From: Sulfurovum sp.
GTDB lineage: Bacteria; Campylobacterota; Campylobacteria; Campylobacterales; Sulfurovaceae
DNA: 64,000 bases
Assembly (NCBI RefSeq): GCF_015493435.1
Contig: NZ_WGDD01000029.1
Coordinates: 1 to 64,000 of the forward strand
Reading direction: 5' to 3'
The notes beneath the pieces are model-generated. The model did not search any database. It was not told the origin of the DNA and saw only the letters and a program-made list of their open reading frames with translations. Positions 15,730-29,610 of the stretch are shown one piece after another. Positions within the stretch are counted from its first letter, which is position 1. Each line of letters opens with the position of its first letter. The translations under genes and the position numbers were made by a program.

Positions 15730-18573
15730 TTACGCCTTTGTGATTTTAACTGCACATTTTTTGTAGTCTGTCTGTTTGGACATTGGACATGTTGCATCCA
15801 GACATACTTTGTTGATAAAGACTTTTTCATCGAACCACGGTACAAATACCAGCCCTTGAGGCGGTCTGTTACGTCCACGAGTCTCAACTCTTGCTTTCAC
15901 TTTACCTCTTCTTGATTCAACCCAGGCAAGCTCACCTCTTTTGAGACCTTTTGCTTTGGCATCCTTTGGATTCATGTAGCAAAGTGCTTCAGGAACCGCA
16001 CGGTAGAGTTCAGGGACTCTCATCGTCATCGTACCAGAGTGCCAGTGCTCAAGTACACGTCCGGTACATAACCATGTGTCATACGTTTCATCCGGCATTT
16101 CCGGCGGATCCATATATGGTCTTGCAAAGATCTTCGCTTTATTAGGCAGCGGTTTTTTCTTTTTGTTCTTAATACCCATAAGGTCACCTTTTGGCAACGC
16201 TTTCGCCAATGGGCCGTAGAAGGCAAAATCACCACCCGGATTTGCTTTTGCCGCATACGGATCGTACTTGACATTATAACGCCACTGCGTCTCTTTGCCG
16301 TCAACCACCGGCCATTTGAGCCCTCTTACTCTCTGATACACTACGAACGGTGCCAGGTCGTGCCCGTGTCCTCTACCGAAGCTTGCATATTCTTCCCAGA
16401 GATACTGGTGGATCATGAAGCCATACCCTTTGAATACTTTTCCGTCTGAACCGACCACATTTCTGCTGTCCCCGAGACATTCAGAGTTATCATACCCTTT
16501 TTGCGGGAATTTATTGAGGTCGATCGGATATTTCTTCTTCGCTCTCGCATTGGCATAAAGGATCTCATACATCGTTGTATTGTCATTGTAACCGAGTTTT
16601 TTGGCATCTTTGCGGACATCAGGCAGTTTCTTTCCGTTTCTGAGTGTATATGGTCCCCACAGATCTTTGACGGTAAATCTTTTTGAGAACTCCACCCACT
16701 GCCAGGTATCTGACATTGCATGACCAACCGGCAGTACCTGCTGTCTCCAGTGCTGTGTACGTCTTTCGGCATTTCCGTACGCACCCCACTTCTCATAGAT
16801 CATTGCTGAAGGAAGTACAAGGTCGGAAACCATTGCAGAAATACCCGGATATCCGTCAGAAGTAACGATAAAGTTGTCCATCTCACGCGCTGCTTTGATC
16901 CAGTGCTTTGCAGAAGCGGAATCCTGGTAGGCATTACAGACGTTGACCCATGCGAACTTGACGACACCGTCTTCGATATCTCTGTGGATCTTCATAATAT
17001 GCTGGTTTCCTACAGGGTTAAGTGTTCCTGGAGGAACATGCCATGTTTTTTCTGCATGCGCTCTGTGTTTAGGGTTTTTCACCATCATATCCGCAGGCAG
17101 TCTGTGACAGAAAGTACCTACTTCTCTTGCTGTACCGCACGCTGAAGGCTGACCTGTCAGAGAGAAAGCTCCAGAACCCGGTTTCGCCTGTTTGTTCAGC
17201 ATGAAGTGTACATTGTAAGAGAGTGTATTATCCCATGATCCTCTGGTATGCTGGTTCATACCCATCGTCCAGAAGGAAACAACCTTTCTGTCTTTTTCAA
17301 GGTAGAGGTCTGCCAGCATTTGAAGCTTTTTCTTAAAGCTTTCAAGTGATTCGTTCGGATCACCTTTGCAGATCTTGGCTACATAGTCAAGGGTATAGGG
17401 TTCAAGTGATTTCTTATAATCCTCAAATGAGATCTCCCAGTGTTTGAGGGTACCGGCAGTGTTTTTCATCACTTCACCCTCTTTTTTACCGTACGGTGCC
17501 AATGCAGGAGCTTCTTTTGCAGAGATTTTTTTCGCCATTTCTTTATTGATGGTCTGCATTTCAAGCGCACTGTATTTTCCGGCACTGCCGTCAGCTCTTA
17601 CAGGTGTAAGTGATTTTTCACCCGCTCGCCTCATACCATAACCGATATTGACCGGTCCAACAGCAAAAACCATATGCTTATTGACAAAATCCCAATCAAT
17701 AATATCTTCTGTTCCGCCACCTTTTTTATCGCGGTAGACGATCTCTCTGGCAAGATAGTTCCACAGAGCGAGGTCTGTGTTCGGAGAGAAAATAATATTG
17801 AAGTCACTAAGATCACAGCTTCGGTGTGTATACGTTTGGATATTGACTACTTTTACTTTGTCCGGGTTGGAAAGTTTTCTGTCCGTAACCCGTGACCAGA
17901 GGATCGGGTGCATTTCTGCCATGTTTGATCCCCATGCTACGATAGTATCTGTGATTTCGATATCGTCATAACATCCTGAAGGCTCATCCATACCGAAGGT
18001 TTGGTAGAACCCGACAACCGCTGATGCCATACAGTGACGTGCGTTCGGATCGATCGCGTTGGATCTGAATCCGCCTTTCATCATTTTCTGGGCTGCATAT
18101 CCTTCCATGATCGTATATTGACCCGAAGCAAATACCGCTACACCCTCCGGACCTTTTTCTTTCAATGCTTTTTTGGCATATTTTTCCATTTCATCAAACG
18201 CACGTTTCCATGAAACAGGTCTGAATTTGCCGTGTTTGTCAAACTCACCTTTGTCATTCATTCTGAGAAGCGGTGTTTTCAGTCTGTCAGCACCATACAT
18301 GATCTTTGCATTAAAATACCCCTTAATACAGTTAAGACCCCTGTTGACAGGCGCTGCCGGGTCACCCTTGACCGCTACGATTCTACCTTCTTTGGTTGCA
18401 AGCATGATCCCGCATCCTGTACCACAGAAACGACATGCTGCCTTATCCCATCTCCAATCCTTCTGCGCATCTGTCGCTGCAGCTTCAAGACTGGACGGAA
18501 CAGCGATTCCAACAGCGCTGGCCGCAGATGCTGCCGCTGCACTTTTTAGAAATTCTCTTCTATTCAAAGCCAT
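15730..18573 (-). CDS. napA: NapA, periplasmic nitrate reductase catalytic subunit
   Basis: Molybdopterin (bis-MGD) nitrate reductase of 947 residues. The ATG at 18573 has GGAGG upstream (GGAGGAAGTAAT); a longer frame to 18666 adds a non-signal-like start. The leader [13 protein letters not shown] (RR at 5-6) is a Tat signal. The 4Fe-4S cluster ligands are C47, C50, C54 and C82 (CRFCGTGC...NC), and C181 in [10 protein letters not shown] is the expected molybdenum ligand. It is the first gene of the nap operon, preceded by an Fnr-type palindrome. Size and inserts fit the epsilonproteobacterial NapA group (about 925-945 residues). Confidence 0.98.
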
Positions 18574-18705
18574 ATTACTTCCTCCGTAAATTGATTTTTG
18601 GTTCTGCGTCAAAAACCCTCTCAATATCCCGGATTGCCGAAATATTAAGAGAGCTTTCACGCACAACTACGTATATAGTTTATCACAGCATCGTTGCGAA
18701 AAAAG

Positions 18706-19317: not shown

Positions 19318-20553
19318 TTATTTTCCGTATGCCAGCATTTTTCTCATAGTTATGAAGAGAAAAATCGCTCCGGCAAAGAGGAAACTTGCTCCGCCTTTAA
19401 AAAGCATGTCACTTTCAAAAAGCAATCCAAGTCCTCCCAGTACCACACCTGAAGCCGTAAACCAGAACATCATGGATGCTCCCTCTTTGGAATACATTTC
19501 ATGCAGCATAGGTACTTTTTCTTTTCCTACCAGAGGGGCAAAACGTTCAAACCAGACCAGGAACGGCACGATCTTGTAAAGATGCCCTGTGATCATAGAA
19601 GCAATGAAACCCAGCAGAATAAACCATACTGATGCATGCAGGATGCTCTCTTTTCCGCTCATAAAATAGACCAGCCCGAGCACAATGGAAACTATCAGTG
19701 TACCAAAAGCGAAGATCATTGACTTCGCCCAGATATCCATCTCTTTTCGTACGGTCAGTCTGGCAATGATATAAATTTGCCAGATATAGAAAAAAACACC
19801 CAGCATATTGAGAGCATAGCCAATATACATGAGCCACTCCTGAGCAAAGAGCGCCCCTGCGAAAACAATACCGACACCGGTAATGACCAGCTTGAATGCC
19901 CTGTTTATCGCTGTTTCTTCAAAACCGTGTGCCAGTGAGAACATAGGTATGAGGATCAGCGACAAGCCGATGATCGTCAGCACAACATAGCCCCCAAGTA
20001 CGGCATAAACATGGGCTTTGAGCATCAGTGGCACATTGATGCCAAGGTCTCCGCTCAGGCCCAGTGCAATGGCAAAGCCGGTAAGAATACCCAGCAGCAG
20101 ATAGCCGTTGCTCCAGGCAACTGTCTTGATCGTCAGTGTACGAATGGTTGTTTTCCTGAGCGTAGCTACATTCTCCACTGCAAAAATGATCATGGCAACG
20201 AGTACCAGCAACCCTCCGTAGGGAAGAATACCCGGCATAAGCCAGAAGCCCGCCACCATCAGCGAAGCACCGACCAGCAGCAGAGGAAAAATAACATAAT
20301 AGACATCCACAACCGCGTGCCCCGCTTCAAGCACTACGGGAATAAGCTGCGCCATGGCACCAAAAATGATCATCATCACGAAACCCAGCAGAAAAAGATG
20401 GATCCACCCTGCTACATTCATTTGTGCATAAGAGAATGTCGGCTCAAAAAAGAGCAGTGCCAACATCGAGAGCAGATAAAAGATCACACCGGCACTGAAA
20501 AAGGGAGATATCAGCTTTAACGGCGGCGCAAAATCACTGGAAATAGCTTTCAT
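19318..20553 (-). CDS. Polytopic membrane protein, NnrS-like/heme-copper oxidase-like
   Basis: 411 residues and about 12 hydrophobic helices. A motif recurs three times: a helix starting with His and ending in a Pro, H52 to P72 (WIHLFLLGFVMMIIFG...LIP), H181 to P203 (AHVYAVLGGYVVLTIIG...LIP) and H306 to P330 (LHASVWFILLGFIASMITG...IVP). This recalls heme-binding NnrS or oxidase subunit I folds, but the full oxidase ligand set is absent. It begins 5 bases after a DUF2249-like gene with a perfect Fnr box, so it is likely induced with denitrification, possibly in NO tolerance. The family name is not certain. Confidence 0.65.
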   Translation of the reverse strand: MKAISSDFAPPLKLISPFFSAGVIFYLLSMLALLFFEPTFSYAQMNVAGWIHLFLLGFVMMIIFGAMAQLIPVVLEAGHAVVDVYYVIFPLLLVGASLMVAGFWLMPGILPYGGLLVLVAMIIFAVENVATLRKTTIRTLTIKTVAWSNGYLLLGILTGFAIALGLSGDLGINVPLMLKAHVYAVLGGYVVLTIIGLSLILIPMFSLAHGFEETAINRAFKLVITGVGIVFAGALFAQEWLMYIGYALNMLGVFFYIWQIYIIARLTVRKEMDIWAKSMIFAFGTLIVSIVLGLVYFMSGKESILHASVWFILLGFIASMITGHLYKIVPFLVWFERFAPLVGKEKVPMLHEMYSKEGASMMFWFTASGVVLGGLGLLFESDMLFKGGASFLFAGAIFLFITMRKMLAYGK

Positions 20554-20558
20554 CTAAC

Positions 20559-20900
20559 CTACCCGTGACAAGCAGCATCATTGAGGTCTGCGTTTTCACT
20601 CTCTCCCGATTTATACGAAAAGATCAGTTTTACACGCCCATCGTCCATTTTTTCTGTTGCTATATCGTAATTCTCACCGATCTTGTCAAGCAGTCCCATT
20701 GGTTTTTTATGATTGATCATCACTACTTTTTTGTTGGGACCATCTATCATTTTAAGTCCTGCCATGGCATTGACCATCGGTTCAGGCGGTCCGCATTTGG
20801 AAGTATCGAATTCAAAATACTGTGTTTCACCTATGGTATAAGTAAAGAAAGGTACTGTTGCACCGGGTACTTCTATGGATTGTTTGTTTAATTCAGACAT
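20559..20900 (-). CDS. DUF2249/TusA-like small protein
   Basis: 113 residues. The core FDTSKCGPPEPMVNAMAGLK followed by VVMINHKKPMGLLDKIGENY matches the DUF2249/TusA fold (Cys-x-x-P-x-P near the first helix, then H-x-x-P before the second). It ends with an AACHG tail. DUF2249 proteins are often encoded with NO-detoxification or denitrification genes. It is the first gene of a two-gene operon with the NnrS-like protein and has a perfect Fnr box upstream. Biochemical function unknown; sulfur or redox handling through C36 is possible. Confidence 0.7.
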   Translation of the reverse strand: MSELNKQSIEVPGATVPFFTYTIGETQYFEFDTSKCGPPEPMVNAMAGLKMIDGPNKKVVMINHKKPMGLLDKIGENYDIATEKMDDGRVKLIFSYKSGESENADLNDAACHG

Positions 20901-21678: not shown

Positions 21679-22671
21679 ATGCAAGACGAATTACTATACC
21701 AAATGCAAAATGCTTTTCCCATGACACAGCAGCCTTTTAAAGAGATCGCAGCTGCCATGAATACGACTGAAGAAGAAGTGCTTTCCACTGTACAGAGACT
21801 CAAAGATGAAAAAATCATCCGCCAGACTTCCGCTATTTTCGATACCAAGCGTCTCGGATACAAGTCATCACTGGTTGCTTTCAAAGTCGCTGAAGAAAAA
21901 ATAGATGAAGCCGCACAGACCATCAATGCCCACCCCGGGGTCAGCCACAATTACCTCAGGAACCATGACTACAATATCTGGTTCACCATGGCCGTCGCAC
22001 CCGACAGCACACTGGGGCTGGAGAAGACCATCGAGATCCTCAAAGAGCAGACAGGGGCGGACGATGCCATCATTCTGCCGACGCTGAAGATGTTCAAGAT
22101 CTCAGTCAAGATGGACACCACGGGGAAACGCGCCAAGAAAGAAAAGGTCAAAAAAACGGCACACAAAGCCATTGAACTGACACCCCGGCACATCGCCGTC
22201 ATCAAAGAACTGCAAAAAGATATTGCCGTCACTTCCGAACCCTACAAAGAGGCAACGGAAAAACTGGATTTGAGCTATGACGAGTTCTTCGGGATCGCCA
22301 ACGAGCTGAAAGAGAGTGGTGTCATGCGCCGTTTCGCCACCATTCTCAACCACAGAAAAGCCGGTTTCGGCGCCAACGCCATGTCCGTCTGGTCCGTACC
22401 AGAGGAGAAAGGAGAGGAGATCGGCCGGCAAATGGCGGAATTCTCGGCCGTCAGCCATTGCTACCTCCGCCCCTCCTACCCCGACTGGCCCTACAACCTC
22501 TTCGCCATGGTTCATGCCAAAACACAGGAAGAGTGCGACACCCTCATAGAAGAAATGGCCAAAGAGAGCGGCCTGAGCGAGTACGGAAAACTCTATTCAA
22601 CGGTAGAATTCAAAAAACAGCGTCTGGTCTATTTTGACGATGCGTTCAGGGAGTGGGAAGAAAGCGTGTGA
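21679..22671 (+). CDS. Siroheme decarboxylase, fused NirD-L/AhbA-B type (Lrp/AsnC-like)
   Basis: 330 residues made of two homologous halves, each with an Lrp-like winged helix and a ligand-binding domain. The halves carry the siroheme decarboxylase signatures SHNYLRNHDYNIWFTM (about 90-105) and SHCYLRPSYPDWPYNLFAMVH (about 258-278). Such proteins convert siroheme to 12,18-didecarboxysiroheme on the way to heme d1 (NirDLGH) or to heme b by the Ahb route. With the SUMT and NirJ-like genes nearby, heme d1 synthesis is the likelier pathway. Fusion of both halves in one chain resembles NirDL. Confidence 0.88.
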   Translation: MQDELLYQMQNAFPMTQQPFKEIAAAMNTTEEEVLSTVQRLKDEKIIRQTSAIFDTKRLGYKSSLVAFKVAEEKIDEAAQTINAHPGVSHNYLRNHDYNIWFTMAVAPDSTLGLEKTIEILKEQTGADDAIILPTLKMFKISVKMDTTGKRAKKEKVKKTAHKAIELTPRHIAVIKELQKDIAVTSEPYKEATEKLDLSYDEFFGIANELKESGVMRRFATILNHRKAGFGANAMSVWSVPEEKGEEIGRQMAEFSAVSHCYLRPSYPDWPYNLFAMVHAKTQEECDTLIEEMAKESGLSEYGKLYSTVEFKKQRLVYFDDAFREWEESV

Positions 22672-22926: not shown

Positions 22927-23628
22927 CTACTCTTTATACCCTATCTGCTCTTTAAAATGTGCAATACAGTTCGTACAATCTTTGATCGTATTGGTTTCAA
23001 CGATAGTATAGAGTGCTTCCTCATGTTCAACAATGACCTTCTGGTCTTTCACGCTGATGATTCCCTCTTTTTTAAACTTGGTCAAAATACGCGAAAAGGT
23101 TTCAGGGGTCAGGTTGAGCATCGAAGCGATCTCATTGTTTTTCAGTCTGTGAAAAAGCGGAAGCTTCTGCATCATCAGATCAGCCACTTTTGCTTCTGAG
23201 GAGAGTACGGTCTCTTTATGTACCAAAGCAGAAAGCAGTGCCACTTTCCCGGTAAGCGATTTGATGATCTCAAGGGAAAAAGCCGGATTGTTCAAGTGTT
23301 TGTAGACAAAGTCAAAGGGTAAAAGCCCCATCGTGCCATCGGTAAGGAATTCACAGGTTGCAGGAAAAGGCTGGTTTTCAAAACAGGCATATTCACCGAT
23401 CATTGCAGGAGCACTCAGACGGTTTATCTGTATTTGCGTTCCTTTGGGTGTCGTTTTGTAGAGTTTGATACTCCCGTCCAATAAAATATGCAGATACTTG
23501 CTTTCATCCCCTTCATAAAAAACAATACTGTCTTTGGAGTATTGTTTCATATGTGTCTGATCATAGAGCTCTTTGAGGTTAGACTCAGACAGGGATGCAA
23601 ACATCTCTATCTCTTCAAGTTTATACAT
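22927..23628 (-). CDS. Crp/Fnr-family transcriptional regulator
   Basis: 233 residues: a cyclic-nucleotide-like beta-barrel (about 20-110), a dimer helix and a C-terminal winged helix. The recognition helix LTPETFSRILTKFK carries E176, S179 and R180, the E-x-x-S-R pattern by which Fnr, Anr and Dnr contact TTGAT half-sites. It lacks the N-terminal Cys cluster of oxygen-sensing Fnr, so NO or redox sensing of Dnr type is a better guess. A C-terminal tail holds a Cys pair (C218, C221). It sits among nir/nor-type genes and is the likely regulator of the boxes seen across the window. Its own promoter has no such box. Confidence 0.9.
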   Translation of the reverse strand: MYKLEEIEMFASLSESNLKELYDQTHMKQYSKDSIVFYEGDESKYLHILLDGSIKLYKTTPKGTQIQINRLSAPAMIGEYACFENQPFPATCEFLTDGTMGLLPFDFVYKHLNNPAFSLEIIKSLTGKVALLSALVHKETVLSSEAKVADLMMQKLPLFHRLKNNEIASMLNLTPETFSRILTKFKKEGIISVKDQKVIVEHEEALYTIVETNTIKDCTNCIAHFKEQIGYKE

Positions 23629-23723: not shown

Positions 23724-24461
23724 CTATGCCTTTTCGAACCAGCTGAGCTGTTCACGCAGTTTGACGACCTCGCCTACGACTATGAGTGCCGGGGTAGGAA
23801 GGTCTTTGGCTTTTTCATAAATGTCTTCCAGTGTTCCGACCACCGTTTTCGCCTCTGCTGTCGTTCCCTTGCTGATGACTGCCACAGGATATTCTTTGGG
23901 TTTTCCGATACCGATGAGTTTTCTGCAGATCACTTTGAGCCGGTGCAGTCCCATAAGAAAGATGATCGTATCGTCACTTTTGTAATTTTCCCAGGGGATC
24001 TGTGACTGATCTTTGTTTTTTGACTCATGTCCCGTCACTACCCTGAACGAAACCGTAATACCGCGGTGTGTGACCGGGATGCCGGCATATTCCGGTACAG
24101 CGATCGCCGATGTCACTCCCGGAATGAACTCGAACCTGATGTTCCTTTCCCGCAGATATATTCCCTCTTCACCGCCGCGTCCGAATACAAAAGGGTCTCC
24201 GCCCTTCAAGCGTACGACATTTTCATACTTGAGCGCCGCCTGATAGATCGCTTCGTTGATCTCTTCCTGGGGAAGCGTATGATGGGAATCTTCTTTCCCC
24301 ACATAAATGAATTCACATCCGTTTTTTGCCTCTTTGAGAATTTCAGGATTGGCCAGTCTGTCATAAATGATCACATCCGCTTCTTTCACCACACGAAGCG
24401 CTTTGACAGTCAATAATTCAATATCGCCCGGACCTGCTCCCGTTAAATAGACTTTACCCAT
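23724..24461 (-). CDS. cobA: Uroporphyrinogen-III C-methyltransferase (SUMT)
   Basis: SAM-dependent methylation of uroporphyrinogen III to precorrin-2, the first step toward siroheme and heme d1. From the ATG at 24461 (AAAAGGA upstream) the protein is 245 residues. Signatures are GKVYLTGAGPGDIELLTVKA at the start, VRLKGGDPFVFGRGGEE (about 85-100), EFIPGVTSAIAVPEYAGIPVTHR and TIIFLMGLHRL. A longer frame reaching 24491 runs into a palindrome and is rejected. It precedes the regulator gene and follows the nirJ-like gene on the same strand. Confidence 0.94.
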   Translation of the reverse strand: MGKVYLTGAGPGDIELLTVKALRVVKEADVIIYDRLANPEILKEAKNGCEFIYVGKEDSHHTLPQEEINEAIYQAALKYENVVRLKGGDPFVFGRGGEEGIYLRERNIRFEFIPGVTSAIAVPEYAGIPVTHRGITVSFRVVTGHESKNKDQSQIPWENYKSDDTIIFLMGLHRLKVICRKLIGIGKPKEYPVAVISKGTTAEAKTVVGTLEDIYEKAKDLPTPALIVVGEVVKLREQLSWFEKA

Positions 24462-24474
24462 CTTCATCCTTTTC

Positions 24475-24492
24475 GGTGCGTGATGACGCACC
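24475..24492. repeat. Short palindrome related to the one at 22838
   Basis: GGTGCGT-GATG-ACGCACC, perfect 7-bp stem, followed by CTGCC. Core and flank match the 22838-22865 element, supporting a repeat family. It lies just upstream of the SUMT ribosome site, between it and the nirJ-like gene. Confidence 0.5.
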
Positions 24493-24523: not shown

Positions 24524-25654
24524 TCAATTGTCAACTGCTGTCTGTTCTTCAGTCAAATAGCACGACGGGTCTTCCGCCCACATGTCTCCGTATATTGCGT
24601 AGGCACGGCTTCGTGAGCCACCGTTGCAAATATCGATATAGCGGCATTCAGCACATTTCCCGCCAAGCTCCCTGGGGTGGATACGCAGTTTTTGCAGCAG
24701 TTCCGTCGGTTCGTTCGTCCAGATATCCGAGAAATCCTGCGTGAGGATATTGCCGATCTTCAGAGGGAAGAAAGGATCAGGTTTTACAAAACCTTCAGAG
24801 TCGATATTCAGCAGCTTTCGTCCCGCAGAATTGCCTCCCCATGCGATCAGCCTTTGTTTCATCTCATCTGCATACTGCGGATATTTTTGGGCGAACCTGT
24901 CGTAAAACAGAATCGCATCCATTTCCATGTTGCCTGTCACAATTTCAATATCTCTGCCGCTTTCGTGGTATTCAAACGCTTTGTCCAAAATATAATTGAC
25001 TGCTGTGATACGCTGCTCTTTACTGAGGTCCATTTCGAGGTTTTCGAGTCCACGTCCGCTGTAAACCAGGTGCGAAATATACACTTTGGGAATATTGTGC
25101 TGTTCGGCAAGTTCAAAAATGAACGGCAGGTCATCATAGGTATCTTTGGTAATGGTGAACCGGATACCCACTTTGGTCTTGCCAAAGGAATTGAGCAGAT
25201 CGACCGCTTTCATCGATTCGACAAAAGAACCTTTAAGTCCTCTGAAAGTGTCATGTACCTCCGGCGAACCGTCAATACTGATACCCACATAATCGAATGT
25301 ATCGAGGATTTTTTCTGCATTGCTCTGTTTGACATACAGCCCGTTTGTCGACAAATAAGTCACGATACCCAGTTCTTTACAGCGTGCGGCAATGTCAAAC
25401 AAGTCTTTTCTCGTCAGAGGCTCACCCCCGGAAAAAATAAGAAATTTGACGCCATTGGCTTTCAGTTTTGGCAGCGTCTCCATAATATTCCCGGTGGTCA
25501 AAGTATCTACGGCATCAAGATCCGCCTTGGAATAGCAGTGCAGACAGGAGAGATTGCATCGGTTGGTAAAGTTCCAGATGGCAATACTGCCGTCAAGCAC
25601 CCGTGCAGGTTTCTCTTCGGTAACAGACTTCAGCAGGTTGGATAGTCTAAACAT
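24524..25654 (-). CDS. nirJ: NirJ-like radical SAM protein (heme d1 synthesis)
   Basis: 376-residue radical SAM/SPASM enzyme. The SAM cluster motif is C33-x3-C37-x2-C40 (RCNLSCLHCYS), with the GGEP motif at about 75-79 (FSGGEPLTRKDLF). The C-terminal cysteine set (GKCAECRYIDICNGGSRSRA, then DPSCYLT) fits auxiliary cluster binding. The GNILTQDFSDIW segment is typical of NirJ/AhbC/AhbD relatives. NirJ removes propionates from didecarboxysiroheme in heme d1 synthesis. AhbC/AhbD of the alternative heme route are close homologues, so the exact reaction is an inference from neighbours (cytochrome c upstream, siroheme decarboxylase, SUMT). Confidence 0.82.
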   Translation of the reverse strand: MFRLSNLLKSVTEEKPARVLDGSIAIWNFTNRCNLSCLHCYSKADLDAVDTLTTGNIMETLPKLKANGVKFLIFSGGEPLTRKDLFDIAARCKELGIVTYLSTNGLYVKQSNAEKILDTFDYVGISIDGSPEVHDTFRGLKGSFVESMKAVDLLNSFGKTKVGIRFTITKDTYDDLPFIFELAEQHNIPKVYISHLVYSGRGLENLEMDLSKEQRITAVNYILDKAFEYHESGRDIEIVTGNMEMDAILFYDRFAQKYPQYADEMKQRLIAWGGNSAGRKLLNIDSEGFVKPDPFFPLKIGNILTQDFSDIWTNEPTELLQKLRIHPRELGGKCAECRYIDICNGGSRSRAYAIYGDMWAEDPSCYLTEEQTAVDN

Positions 25655-25977
25655 TATTTGCTCTCTTTGTGGCTAGGTTTGTAGGACAAAATATACGCTG
25701 TGATCGCTTTGAGTTCTTCGGGAGTCAGTTTGAAGGGAGGCATTGCATTGCGTTTGTATCCGAATATTTTGGAAACCGCTGCGGGGTCGGCGATCATTGC
25801 CTGGATCTCTTCGGCATTCCTTTTGGAAGCAATTTCTGCAAACGGCGGCCCGAAAGCCACGGCAGTCTGGTGATGGCATCCCCAGCAGTATGTTTCAAAA
25901 ACTTTTTTACCGCTCTGTGCATATGCAGAAGAAGAGAGCGCCAGGACGGTTAAAAATACTATGATGCTTTTTGTCAT
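25654..25977 (-). CDS. Periplasmic monoheme cytochrome c (c55x type)
   Basis: 107 residues from the ATG at 25977 (AAGGA 7 bases upstream). Signal peptide with AYAQ cleavage region near residue 20, then heme motif CWGCH (31-35) and a Met-ligand region KRNAMPPFKLTPEEL. It overlaps the nirJ-like gene by 1 base. Small cytochromes of this kind (NirC/NirM-like) accompany cd1 nitrite reductase systems. A close relative is encoded at 58137, sharing the K-x-F-G-Y-x-x-N-A-M-P pattern. Confidence 0.9.
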   Translation of the reverse strand: MTKSIIVFLTVLALSSSAYAQSGKKVFETYCWGCHHQTAVAFGPPFAEIASKRNAEEIQAMIADPAAVSKIFGYKRNAMPPFKLTPEELKAITAYILSYKPSHKESK

Positions 25978-26060
25978 CTTTTTATCCTTCATTCATGTGA
26001 TAGAATCATAAGATAATAACAGTTTTTTAATGCTTAAAAGTTGATTTAACGCAAGAAGTA

Positions 26061-26153: not shown

Positions 26154-26660
26154 CTATTCTGCCATTTTGCGGTGTGCTTTTGCCATTTTTTTAAACCGGC
26201 TTTTATCTTCAATAGAATGAAAACCACTGTCGGGAATATAGTGAAAATAGGGATATTTGTAAAGCATCATGGCATTATCCAGTACAATGATTTCATCGAT
26301 CTCGTCCCAGGGCCACTGTACGCGCCCTTCTTTTCCTTTGATCTCAAAGCCCTCATCACTGACATCAATAAAGATCGTTTTGTCTCTGAAAGAAGATGTT
26401 TCAAAAGCGCTTTCGGCCCGTTTTCTGGCAATGATCTTTTTACCGTAATACCAGTATACAAGTACGATAGAAGAGAACAACAGAAGAGAAAAATCGCCTT
26501 TTTTGAGTGCGGCTACCACACCAAACTGCAATATAGCGATAAACAGCCATCCGATATAGCGTTTGGCAGAGTGCTCAAACTGGTATTTGTAGGAAGATTC
26601 AAACAGTTTTTTGACATTTTCCCTGTTCCAGGTATAGCGTATGTGTATCGGTTCAGACAT
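26154..26660 (-). CDS. Membrane protein with YcxB-like domain
   Basis: 168 residues from the ATG at 26660 (GGAG upstream; a GTG at 26669 is an alternative). Two hydrophobic segments (about 38-78) are followed by a beta-rich C-terminal region (TIFIDVSDEGFEIKGKEGRVQWPWDEIDEI) matching the YcxB-like C-terminal domain found in small membrane proteins. Function unknown. It overlaps the stop of the preceding gene by 8 bases and lies between the NO reductase genes and the nirJ/cytochrome genes. Confidence 0.65.
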   Translation of the reverse strand: MSEPIHIRYTWNRENVKKLFESSYKYQFEHSAKRYIGWLFIAILQFGVVAALKKGDFSLLLFSSIVLVYWYYGKKIIARKRAESAFETSSFRDKTIFIDVSDEGFEIKGKEGRVQWPWDEIDEIIVLDNAMMLYKYPYFHYIPDSGFHSIEDKSRFKKMAKAHRKMAE

Positions 26661-27258
26661 GTTCGTCACACTCCTCTATGAGAAGATCGGACTTTCGGAT
26701 ACATCCTTCTTTTTCCAGGCGGGAGAGCATCTCCAGGGTCTCTTCATACATTTTTTCATAGATCGCTTTGTTTCTGGCGAATTTTTTCTGTTCTTTCTTC
26801 CCGTACCAGTACGCCACGGCAACAGAAGAAGCGAATATGCCGTAGATCAGCCCCTGCCAGGCTTTAAGATTTAGCAGTACGATGAAGTACTGTACGGAAA
26901 AGAGTACAAAGAATTCGATTGAAAAGATGATCACAAGTATGGCGCTTTGTTCAAAATCAAGGGTGTATTTTTCCAGCTCTCTGAGTTGTGCCAGATTGGT
27001 ATTGATCTTGTCTGCCGTGTTCATGCACTCATCTTTTAAATCACCGGTCTCTATATCTCTGAGGTGAATATTGCTTAAATTGTATTCGACATTGGTCTGC
27101 ATATAATCCTGAAGGAGTTGGGGGTGTGTTCCGAGAATATCAAGGATCTCTGTTTCGCTGACCCTGTTTTTGCCTGCGATCTTCTGAACGTCCTGCAGTA
27201 CAAGGTCGTAAAGACCTACCGTTCTGATTTCGCGGGCAACTCTGTCTAAATGTATCAA
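26653..27258 (-). CDS. Two-helix membrane protein with coiled regions, unknown function
   Basis: 201 residues: a charged helical N-terminal half (about 1-105), two adjacent hydrophobic segments (about 108-150, AILVIIFSIEFFVLFSVQYF and GLIYGIFASSVAVAYWYG), and a charged C-terminal helix ending in Cys/Asp/Glu/His. This hairpin-in-membrane layout with cytoplasmic ends resembles small regulatory or assembly membrane proteins, but I recognise no family. It follows the NO reductase catalytic gene by 52 bases on the same strand and is translationally coupled to the YcxB-like gene. Confidence 0.65.
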   Translation of the reverse strand: MIHLDRVAREIRTVGLYDLVLQDVQKIAGKNRVSETEILDILGTHPQLLQDYMQTNVEYNLSNIHLRDIETGDLKDECMNTADKINTNLAQLRELEKYTLDFEQSAILVIIFSIEFFVLFSVQYFIVLLNLKAWQGLIYGIFASSVAVAYWYGKKEQKKFARNKAIYEKMYEETLEMLSRLEKEGCIRKSDLLIEECDEHV

Positions 27259-27310: not shown

Positions 27311-29002
27311 TTAATTGTTTGCAAAGGCAGGATCGTCTGCCGGTTCAAGCTCTTCCTCAATGCCGTAAGAGGCTGTCGGGTCTTTTGCCGGAGAAAAGAT
27401 GCCTATCAAGCCTTTGAGACCGACACTCATGATAATATTGTACAGGAAGAGTGCCCAGGCAAGCAGCAGCATGGAACCGAAGATAGCTGCAAACACCATG
27501 TCCGGGTTAAACTGTCCGTTTACATAAAGGTGACGTCTTAACATTCCGTCAAGCCCTGCCATCCCCATAAAGGCACCCATACCGATACCACCGATGAGAT
27601 GAAGCCAGAAGTGTGCATTTGAGAGTTTATGCGAATAGAGCTTCGTATTGTTTGTCACCAGCGGCCACAGGACATATACGGCACTGTAAAGTGTCATATA
27701 CAGTCCGACGATCAGAGCAATGTGCACATGTGCACCGATGATCCACTGGGTATTGTGCAGTACCCTGTTCATTCCCATATCTGCCTGAATGATAGCTGCC
27801 GGAACAGCCAGACCAAAACCGACCATACCGCCAAGCAGATACTTGAGTTCCATTGTCATTTTAAGCGGCCTTGCTTTCCAGAGTGTTACCAGAGTAATGA
27901 AAAGTGCCAATCCCTGCGTCAGCAATTCAAAAGCAGTCACCATTTCACCGGAGATCAGTTTCATCATTTCCGGCTGTCCCTGGTCTCCCAGCAGGTGGTG
28001 GGACCAGACCATCCAGGAGACGAGCAGTTCAAGCATCAGCGCCGCTCTTGCCACGTTCTCCATAAAGAGCTTCTGCCCTGTGATCAGCATCGCAAGCAAA
28101 TACCATGAACCCGCTACATAAATAAGTACCAGACCGTCGGCGACAAGGTCAAGCCCCCACCAGAAAAAGTTCTTGTAGAGCAGTGCATCGATTGCAGTGA
28201 CATCAAGCGCATGTCCGCTGGCATCAAAAACCAGATAGATCAAAATCAGAATACCTGCCCCCAGGATCACCAGGGCATCAAGGAAGGTATCGACCGTACC
28301 GCGGAAGATCGCCACAACAGGAAGTGCCAGGGCCGGCTCTTTGCTGTACGGCTGTTTCCCGCGTAACTTGTTGACCAGGTTGAGCATACCGTCAATACCG
28401 AAACCGGAGATAAGCAGTTCTTTGAGTGTTTTGTTCTTATGAATACCGACACGGGCAAAAATCGTCGCATAAATATTGTAGATAAACCCTAAAGTTCCTA
28501 CCATGATCAAAGCAACACCGATGATAAATACGATCCCTCCGACTACTTTGAACTGGTGGGTATCTGCAGGAAGCGGCCAGTAGAGTGTATAGAGCGGTGC
28601 ATATTGCCATACGAAGGCTGCAATCCAGGCAAGTGCTGTTCCGATCGTGATCAGAAGCCAGACAAAATTGGCAAGCTTAATGCTGTAAAGCGGCTTCTTT
28701 GTCAGATACGGCACTAGGAACATGAAAGCCCCGAAAACAAGCTGATACGTCGAACCGAAGATACCGACGATCGGGTGTACGGTCATGATGGAAAAGAAAT
28801 GCTCCGGATGGAAAAACTGTCCCGGCAGCGGGTTGAGCGGTACCTTCCCTACTTCCACCATTCTCATGATCATCCCTTCAAGTGCAACCAGACCATAAAA
28901 GAGGAATGCCATAACTACTGAACGAAGTGTCACTTTTTGGAGTGCATTCAGACTGTTATGGTCAAAATTCGTCCCCTCTTTAAGATTATGCATAAAACTC
29001 AT
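27311..29002 (-). CDS. Heme-copper superfamily NO reductase-like catalytic subunit, divergent active site
   Basis: 563 residues, about 14 membrane helices. Candidate heme ligands are visible: H76 (MTVHPIVGIFG) and H427 for the low-spin heme, H425 for the high-spin heme (GAHVHIAL), and the metal-site pair H335-H336 (VWSHHLLGD). At the place where NorB has a His and Glu (W-W-x-x-H-L-W-V-E-G) this protein reads WWGLDLVADG, with D285 and D289. It lacks the Tyr-His oxidase pattern and has NorB-like length, so NO reduction is the likely activity, in the divergent NOR groups of the superfamily. It is co-transcribed with its subunit II (4-base overlap). Confidence 0.8.
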   Translation of the reverse strand: MSFMHNLKEGTNFDHNSLNALQKVTLRSVVMAFLFYGLVALEGMIMRMVEVGKVPLNPLPGQFFHPEHFFSIMTVHPIVGIFGSTYQLVFGAFMFLVPYLTKKPLYSIKLANFVWLLITIGTALAWIAAFVWQYAPLYTLYWPLPADTHQFKVVGGIVFIIGVALIMVGTLGFIYNIYATIFARVGIHKNKTLKELLISGFGIDGMLNLVNKLRGKQPYSKEPALALPVVAIFRGTVDTFLDALVILGAGILILIYLVFDASGHALDVTAIDALLYKNFFWWGLDLVADGLVLIYVAGSWYLLAMLITGQKLFMENVARAALMLELLVSWMVWSHHLLGDQGQPEMMKLISGEMVTAFELLTQGLALFITLVTLWKARPLKMTMELKYLLGGMVGFGLAVPAAIIQADMGMNRVLHNTQWIIGAHVHIALIVGLYMTLYSAVYVLWPLVTNNTKLYSHKLSNAHFWLHLIGGIGMGAFMGMAGLDGMLRRHLYVNGQFNPDMVFAAIFGSMLLLAWALFLYNIIMSVGLKGLIGIFSPAKDPTASYGIEEELEPADDPAFANN

Positions 29003-29610
29003 TTCCCACCTCCTTTTTTACAGCCTACAACTTGAACAAGATTTTTTACCAGCATCAAGTCCTTTCCGTCTTCCGTATATTGTTTAGGCCCGGAATATTC
29101 TGTAGATGTCAGATCAAATGAACCGTTATGGTTAAAGGTCCATAGAATATCATTTGAATCCAGAATTCCATTGACGTCCGTTCCCGGATTGACCTGCATT
29201 TGCATCACCATGGAACCATCCTGCCTGAAAAGTCCGAAACCGTACACCAGGTCCCTGCTGTGCACATCGAATCTGATCGTCTGTCCACACTGTACTACGA
29301 TCTTTTTGGGCAGACCGATCCACTTGTGGTTTTCTACCTCAAATTCATACTTGGCATCCGCTTTGATGTTTTGCCTGTCTATATCCTGTGAAACCCACGG
29401 AATAGTATTGTATGTAAAAATATGGTGTCCGACACCGCCTGCGACCAAAAATGCCATATACCAGTAAAACGGTATTCTAAAGACTGATTTTGCTTCTTTT
29501 CTGGTCAGGTTGTACCCGAACCATGCCACAACAGAAATAATCATTGCTGCATAGATCGTATATGCTACCCAGTGAAAAGACAATAACTCAGCCGAGTTTG
29601 TAAATGTCAT
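28999..29610 (-). CDS. NO reductase-like subunit II with cupredoxin domain, no heme c
   Basis: 203 residues: two N-terminal membrane helices (about 15-33 and 47-64) and a periplasmic cupredoxin-like domain similar to oxidase subunit II (VVQCGQTIRFDVHSRDLVYGFGLF...). No CxxCH heme motif, unlike NorC. The CuA loop (C-x-E-x-C-x3-H) is replaced by LTSTEYSGPKQYTE, so CuA is unlikely. The only Cys residues are in QCGQ and VVGCKKGGG. The start has GAGGAGGGG upstream, and a perfect Fnr box lies 64 bases further. How electrons enter is unclear. Confidence 0.8.
   Translation of the reverse strand: MTFTNSAELLSFHWVAYTIYAAMIISVVAWFGYNLTRKEAKSVFRIPFYWYMAFLVAGGVGHHIFTYNTIPWVSQDIDRQNIKADAKYEFEVENHKWIGLPKKIVVQCGQTIRFDVHSRDLVYGFGLFRQDGSMVMQMQVNPGTDVNGILDSNDILWTFNHNGSFDLTSTEYSGPKQYTEDGKDLMLVKNLVQVVGCKKGGGK

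Follow-up and report, generated by a model that had tools for sequence, protein, structure and literature searches.

One gene in the window (the whole 64,000-nucleotide stretch of Sulfurovum sp. DNA that was analysed) very probably encodes the catalytic subunit of a gNOR-type NO reductase, partnered by a subunit II that lacks copper A, in a Sulfurovum-like complete denitrifier. The reading frame runs from ATG to stop on the minus strand, a strand that the original prediction had not given (Table 1). Its product matches Pfam COX1 over residues 24–510 (E = 2.8e-50) and over almost its whole length the predicted model is similar to heme-copper oxidases and to NO reductases; against the cNOR structure 3o0r_B the comparison gave a VIA Z of 30.0 and an rmsd of 3.5 Å with 408 aligned. 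The active-site pLDDT of the AlphaFold model is low, about 50–57, and the predicted model confirms the fold and nothing beyond the fold. The nearest public match, at 97% identity, is from a Sulfurovum MAG; the host genome of the window is 2.16 Mb. A scan of viral contigs found no relatives.

Table 1. The gNOR genes and their neighbours in the window.
Feature	Position	Strand	Remarks
Subunit II (norH-like)	28999..29610	-	membrane anchor and cupredoxin domain without copper-A ligands (Y123, S169, S173); 4-base overlap with the catalytic gene start
gNOR catalytic subunit (norG-like), 563 aa	27311..29002	-	heme-copper fold; D285 and D289 in helix VI, H335-H336, H425, H427, H76
orf201, immediately downstream of gNOR; a small, conserved membrane protein	26653..27258	-	part of clade-1 gNOR operons; missing where a genome has no gNOR
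Membrane protein with a YcxB domain, fourth in the gene run	26154..26669	-	often, not always, kept
Small cytochrome c, next gene	25654..25992	-	not kept next to gNOR at other loci
NirJ-like radical SAM protein (heme d1 pathway)	24524..25654	-	
Uroporphyrinogen-III C-methyltransferase (CobA type)	23724..24491	-	
Crp/Fnr-family regulator	22927..23628	-	
Siroheme decarboxylase NirDL-like protein	21679..22671	+	
Periplasmic nitrate reductase NapA	15730..18666	-	

Helix VI of the protein carries the motif WWGLDLVADG, with Asp at 285 and 289, in place of the HLWVE signature that supplies a metal His and a Glu in cNOR and qNOR. Both Asp residues, the retained H335-H336, H425 and H427, and H76, the expected second His of the low-spin heme, were each found in 104/104 distinct homologues, so that neither a sequencing error nor chance can account for them. 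The homologues had been picked by other motifs of the protein (HP[IM][VI]GIFG / YAPLYTLY) and not by the helix-VI motif; all are from Campylobacterota and they form two clades, which share about 80–97% and about 63% identity with the window protein. The motif and the four His residues stand as the original prediction had read and numbered them. Oxygen reductases of the B family have three metal His and a crosslinked Tyr; here Asp is found at both positions, in the alignment register discussed below.

The register of helix VI was examined by several comparisons. A profile of the family aligned with seven B-family oxidases at E = 1e-24 and placed D285 on the metal His. With 24 cNOR sequences the match was weak (E = 1e-4) and ungapped, D285 falling on the His and D289 on the Glu, and a comparison with a single qNOR gave the same pairing at a non-significant score. 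The position of D289 is Tyr in the oxidases and Glu in cNOR and qNOR. When helix VI was scored ungapped, D285 came first or tied first against 7/7 cNOR and qNOR sequences; the scoring was undecided against the A and B families and preferred L284 against cbb3. Searching the PDB with the single sequence (phmmer) gave just two weak matches. Both MAFFT and the one comparison with cbb3 place the gap such that helix VI shifts by one residue, which would put Leu284 at the His position and leave the lost ligand replaced by no protein residue. This misalignment is unlikely, as the two Asp are invariant and spaced i, i+4 exactly as are His/Tyr and His/Glu, the B-family and cNOR profiles and the one qNOR sequence give D285 as the His, and L284 itself is not fully invariant among the homologues. 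Because the spacing of the two invariant Asp fits both pairs and the literature gives D for gNOR, D285 is assigned, with moderate confidence and from alignment, to the metal-His position of helix VI. The original prediction, which had named a misaligned motif as grounds for its own rejection, thus keeps its Asp at the position of one of the three metal His where profiles are used, though MAFFT and cbb3 shift it by one; two residues are changed rather than the one it had proposed. We do not equate E359 with E280 of cNOR, the loop lengths leaving that alignment ambiguous.

By profile, ba3-type oxidases came out as the closest relatives in the PDB. A tree of 25 sequences showed gNOR as a separate clade which, with the A and B families, was split from cbb3, cNOR and qNOR (98/97 support); the tree has long branches, and either A or B could be the sister of gNOR. 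The literature groups gNOR among enzymes related to B-family oxidases, its reduction of NO being proposed rather than shown for any member (PMC11388526), and gives the active-site residue as D for gNOR in Sulfurimonas and Sulfurovum (PMC8756737), with Persephonella also listed. In the literature eNOR, sNOR and bNOR are likewise NO reductases related to B-family oxidases in which the Tyr is replaced, and are set apart by the residue described: Gln in eNOR, Asn in sNOR and bNOR (older name CuANor) and Asp in gNOR. The window protein has Asp at this Tyr/Glu position (D289, in register with the cNOR Glu by profile), is one of two subunits of which the second is of cupredoxin type, and belongs to a family occurring in both Sulfurimonas and Sulfurovum; the best 80 loci of a genome scan are all from Campylobacterota, including Sulfurimonas indica and Sulfurovum. 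It is the only Asp-type protein among the three heme-copper proteins of its genome. No difference was found from gNOR (norGH) of Sulfurimonas, Sulfurovum, Persephonella and Methylomirabilis, which shares the active-site Asp, the cupredoxin subunit II, the absence of copper A and the genera. The divergent NOR group with altered ligands that the original prediction had left unnamed is accordingly gNOR. The family, one of deep-sea sulfur bacteria, has been named and its Asp listed already, and it is apparently biochemically uncharacterised.

The likeness to cNOR (NorBC) extends to the heme-copper fold, an acidic residue four positions after that of the third ligand, and the presence of both enzymes in denitrifiers and in this genome. 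However, cNOR has His and Glu at the two positions and a cytochrome c subunit, and falls in a separate clade; the neighbour of the window gene is a cupredoxin subunit and not NorC, the true NorCB of the genome being encoded elsewhere. The protein is NO-reductase-like by proposed function and is no NorB. The description as an NO reductase-like subunit thus holds for the function proposed, while NorB, from whose cNOR/qNOR clade the protein is excluded, was the wrong closest comparator.

Subunit II gave no significant match to Pfam, but its profile aligned with B-type subunit II using hhalign (E = 1.6e-10), and a subunit II is present in 80/80 of the best genome-scan loci. In 106 sequences none of the copper-A ligands is left: Y123 stands where ba3 has its His, and S169 and S173 (Ala in 11) where it has the two Cys. 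The Glu and Tyr between the Cys positions are kept, so that STEYSG takes the place of the ba3 motif CNEYCG. In the catalytic subunit, the ba3 K-channel positions Y237, Y244, Y248, T312 and T315, mapped ungapped, read D, V, W, L and F, and S309 reads T. The loss of the channel agrees with the published view that gNOR has no conserved channel (PMC8756737, PMC8906906). The enzyme norGH has been described as quinone-oxidising and non-electrogenic (PMC8906906); the loss of copper A fits electrons being taken from the quinone pool by gNOR (PMC8906906), and gNOR probably pumps no protons.

The ba3-type (B-family) cytochrome c oxidase is thus the closest solved relative by profile, with both subunits I and II homologous, and the window enzyme differs from it by the change of the metal His and of the crosslinking Tyr to Asp, by the loss of the K channel and copper A, and by one extra residue ahead of the proximal His in helix X. 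A profile far closer to ba3 oxidases than to cNOR and a subunit II of B type would also suit a divergent B-family oxygen reductase that has kept O2 chemistry with altered ligands. This is very unlikely given that the crosslinked Tyr is Asp in 104/104 homologues, one metal His and most K-channel residues are gone, a cbb3 oxidase is there to handle oxygen in this genome, and the occurrence of gNOR tracks that of nitrite reductase.

For a gNOR, the likely reaction would be as follows. Membrane quinol would reduce the low-spin heme (H76/H427) and the electrons would then reach the high-spin heme (H425). Two NO would be converted to N2O at the high-spin heme and an adjacent non-heme metal bound by H335, H336 and D285, with D289 acting as a further metal ligand or as a proton relay. 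With its carboxylates, this site would prefer iron to copper.

The host genome contains two d1-type genes, one of them for a NirS-type cytochrome d1, together with genes for NapA, NosZ and a cbb3 oxidase. A canonical norCB (WVIHLWVEA) lies beside nirS at positions 73034-74509 of the same contig (C29), ∼44 kb from gNOR. On paper the host is a complete denitrifier, and gNOR seems to be its second NO reductase. In a set of 60 related genomes (13 with gNOR, 47 without), d1-type genes (NirS/F) were found in 12/13 of the former and 12/47 of the latter (Fisher p 2e-5), counts that are uncorrected for shared ancestry. A cNOR-like gene is present in 12 of the 13 gNOR genomes. The sister genome G035 keeps an intact cNOR, and its gNOR survives only as a remnant broken by stops and frameshifts (C33:28287-31769). 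With a cNOR already in the genome and gNOR broken in G035, gNOR is dispensable in some lineages. Several relatives (G008, G021, G033, G034 and others) have another NorB-like family, with about 40% identity to cNOR.

The altered metal ligands, the cNOR alongside, the patchy distribution and the decay in one sister genome could also point to another NO-handling enzyme, either an NO dismutase or an NO-detoxifying protein without energy conservation. We consider this quite unlikely: putative NO dismutases group with qNOR (PMC3413370) and the window protein does not. A role in detoxification, which would use the same conversion of NO to N2O, may still apply.

Returning to gNOR and its genes, subunit II, gNOR, orf201 and often a YcxB-domain gene run in the same order at most loci. 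The orf201 product gave no significant match to Pfam. It is encoded in 11/13 gNOR genomes and 0/47 others (p 2e-10), and the two gNOR genomes lacking it both belong to the second gNOR clade. Its role may be that of a third subunit or of a factor in assembly. The cited gNOR literature does not mention the orf201 and YcxB neighbours. More speculatively, and with considerable doubt on our part, gNOR might have a carboxylate-rich non-heme metal site of two His and two Asp. Where cNOR is loaded by the NorQ/NorD system, the larger gNOR clade might instead need orf201 as a dedicated third membrane protein, perhaps with the YcxB protein, to assemble the enzyme or to let electrons in.

Some further observations were made on the surrounding genes. 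A YcxB-domain protein follows orf201 at many gNOR loci and its sequence is poorly conserved. The small cytochrome c was considered as a dedicated donor to gNOR and dropped, since it adjoins gNOR in few loci. Within the denitrification cluster, a 411-aa polytopic membrane protein (19318-20553, minus strand) without a Pfam or NCBIfam match is encoded beside a DUF2249-like gene (20559-20900).

Vent and sediment Campylobacterota commonly carry gNOR, an NO-reductase family still known from sequence alone and one which surveys using norB only would miss. If gNOR does reduce NO, at a metal with two His and one or two Asp as ligands, then an oxygen-reductase-like site would have become an NO reductase by a route other than that of cNOR.
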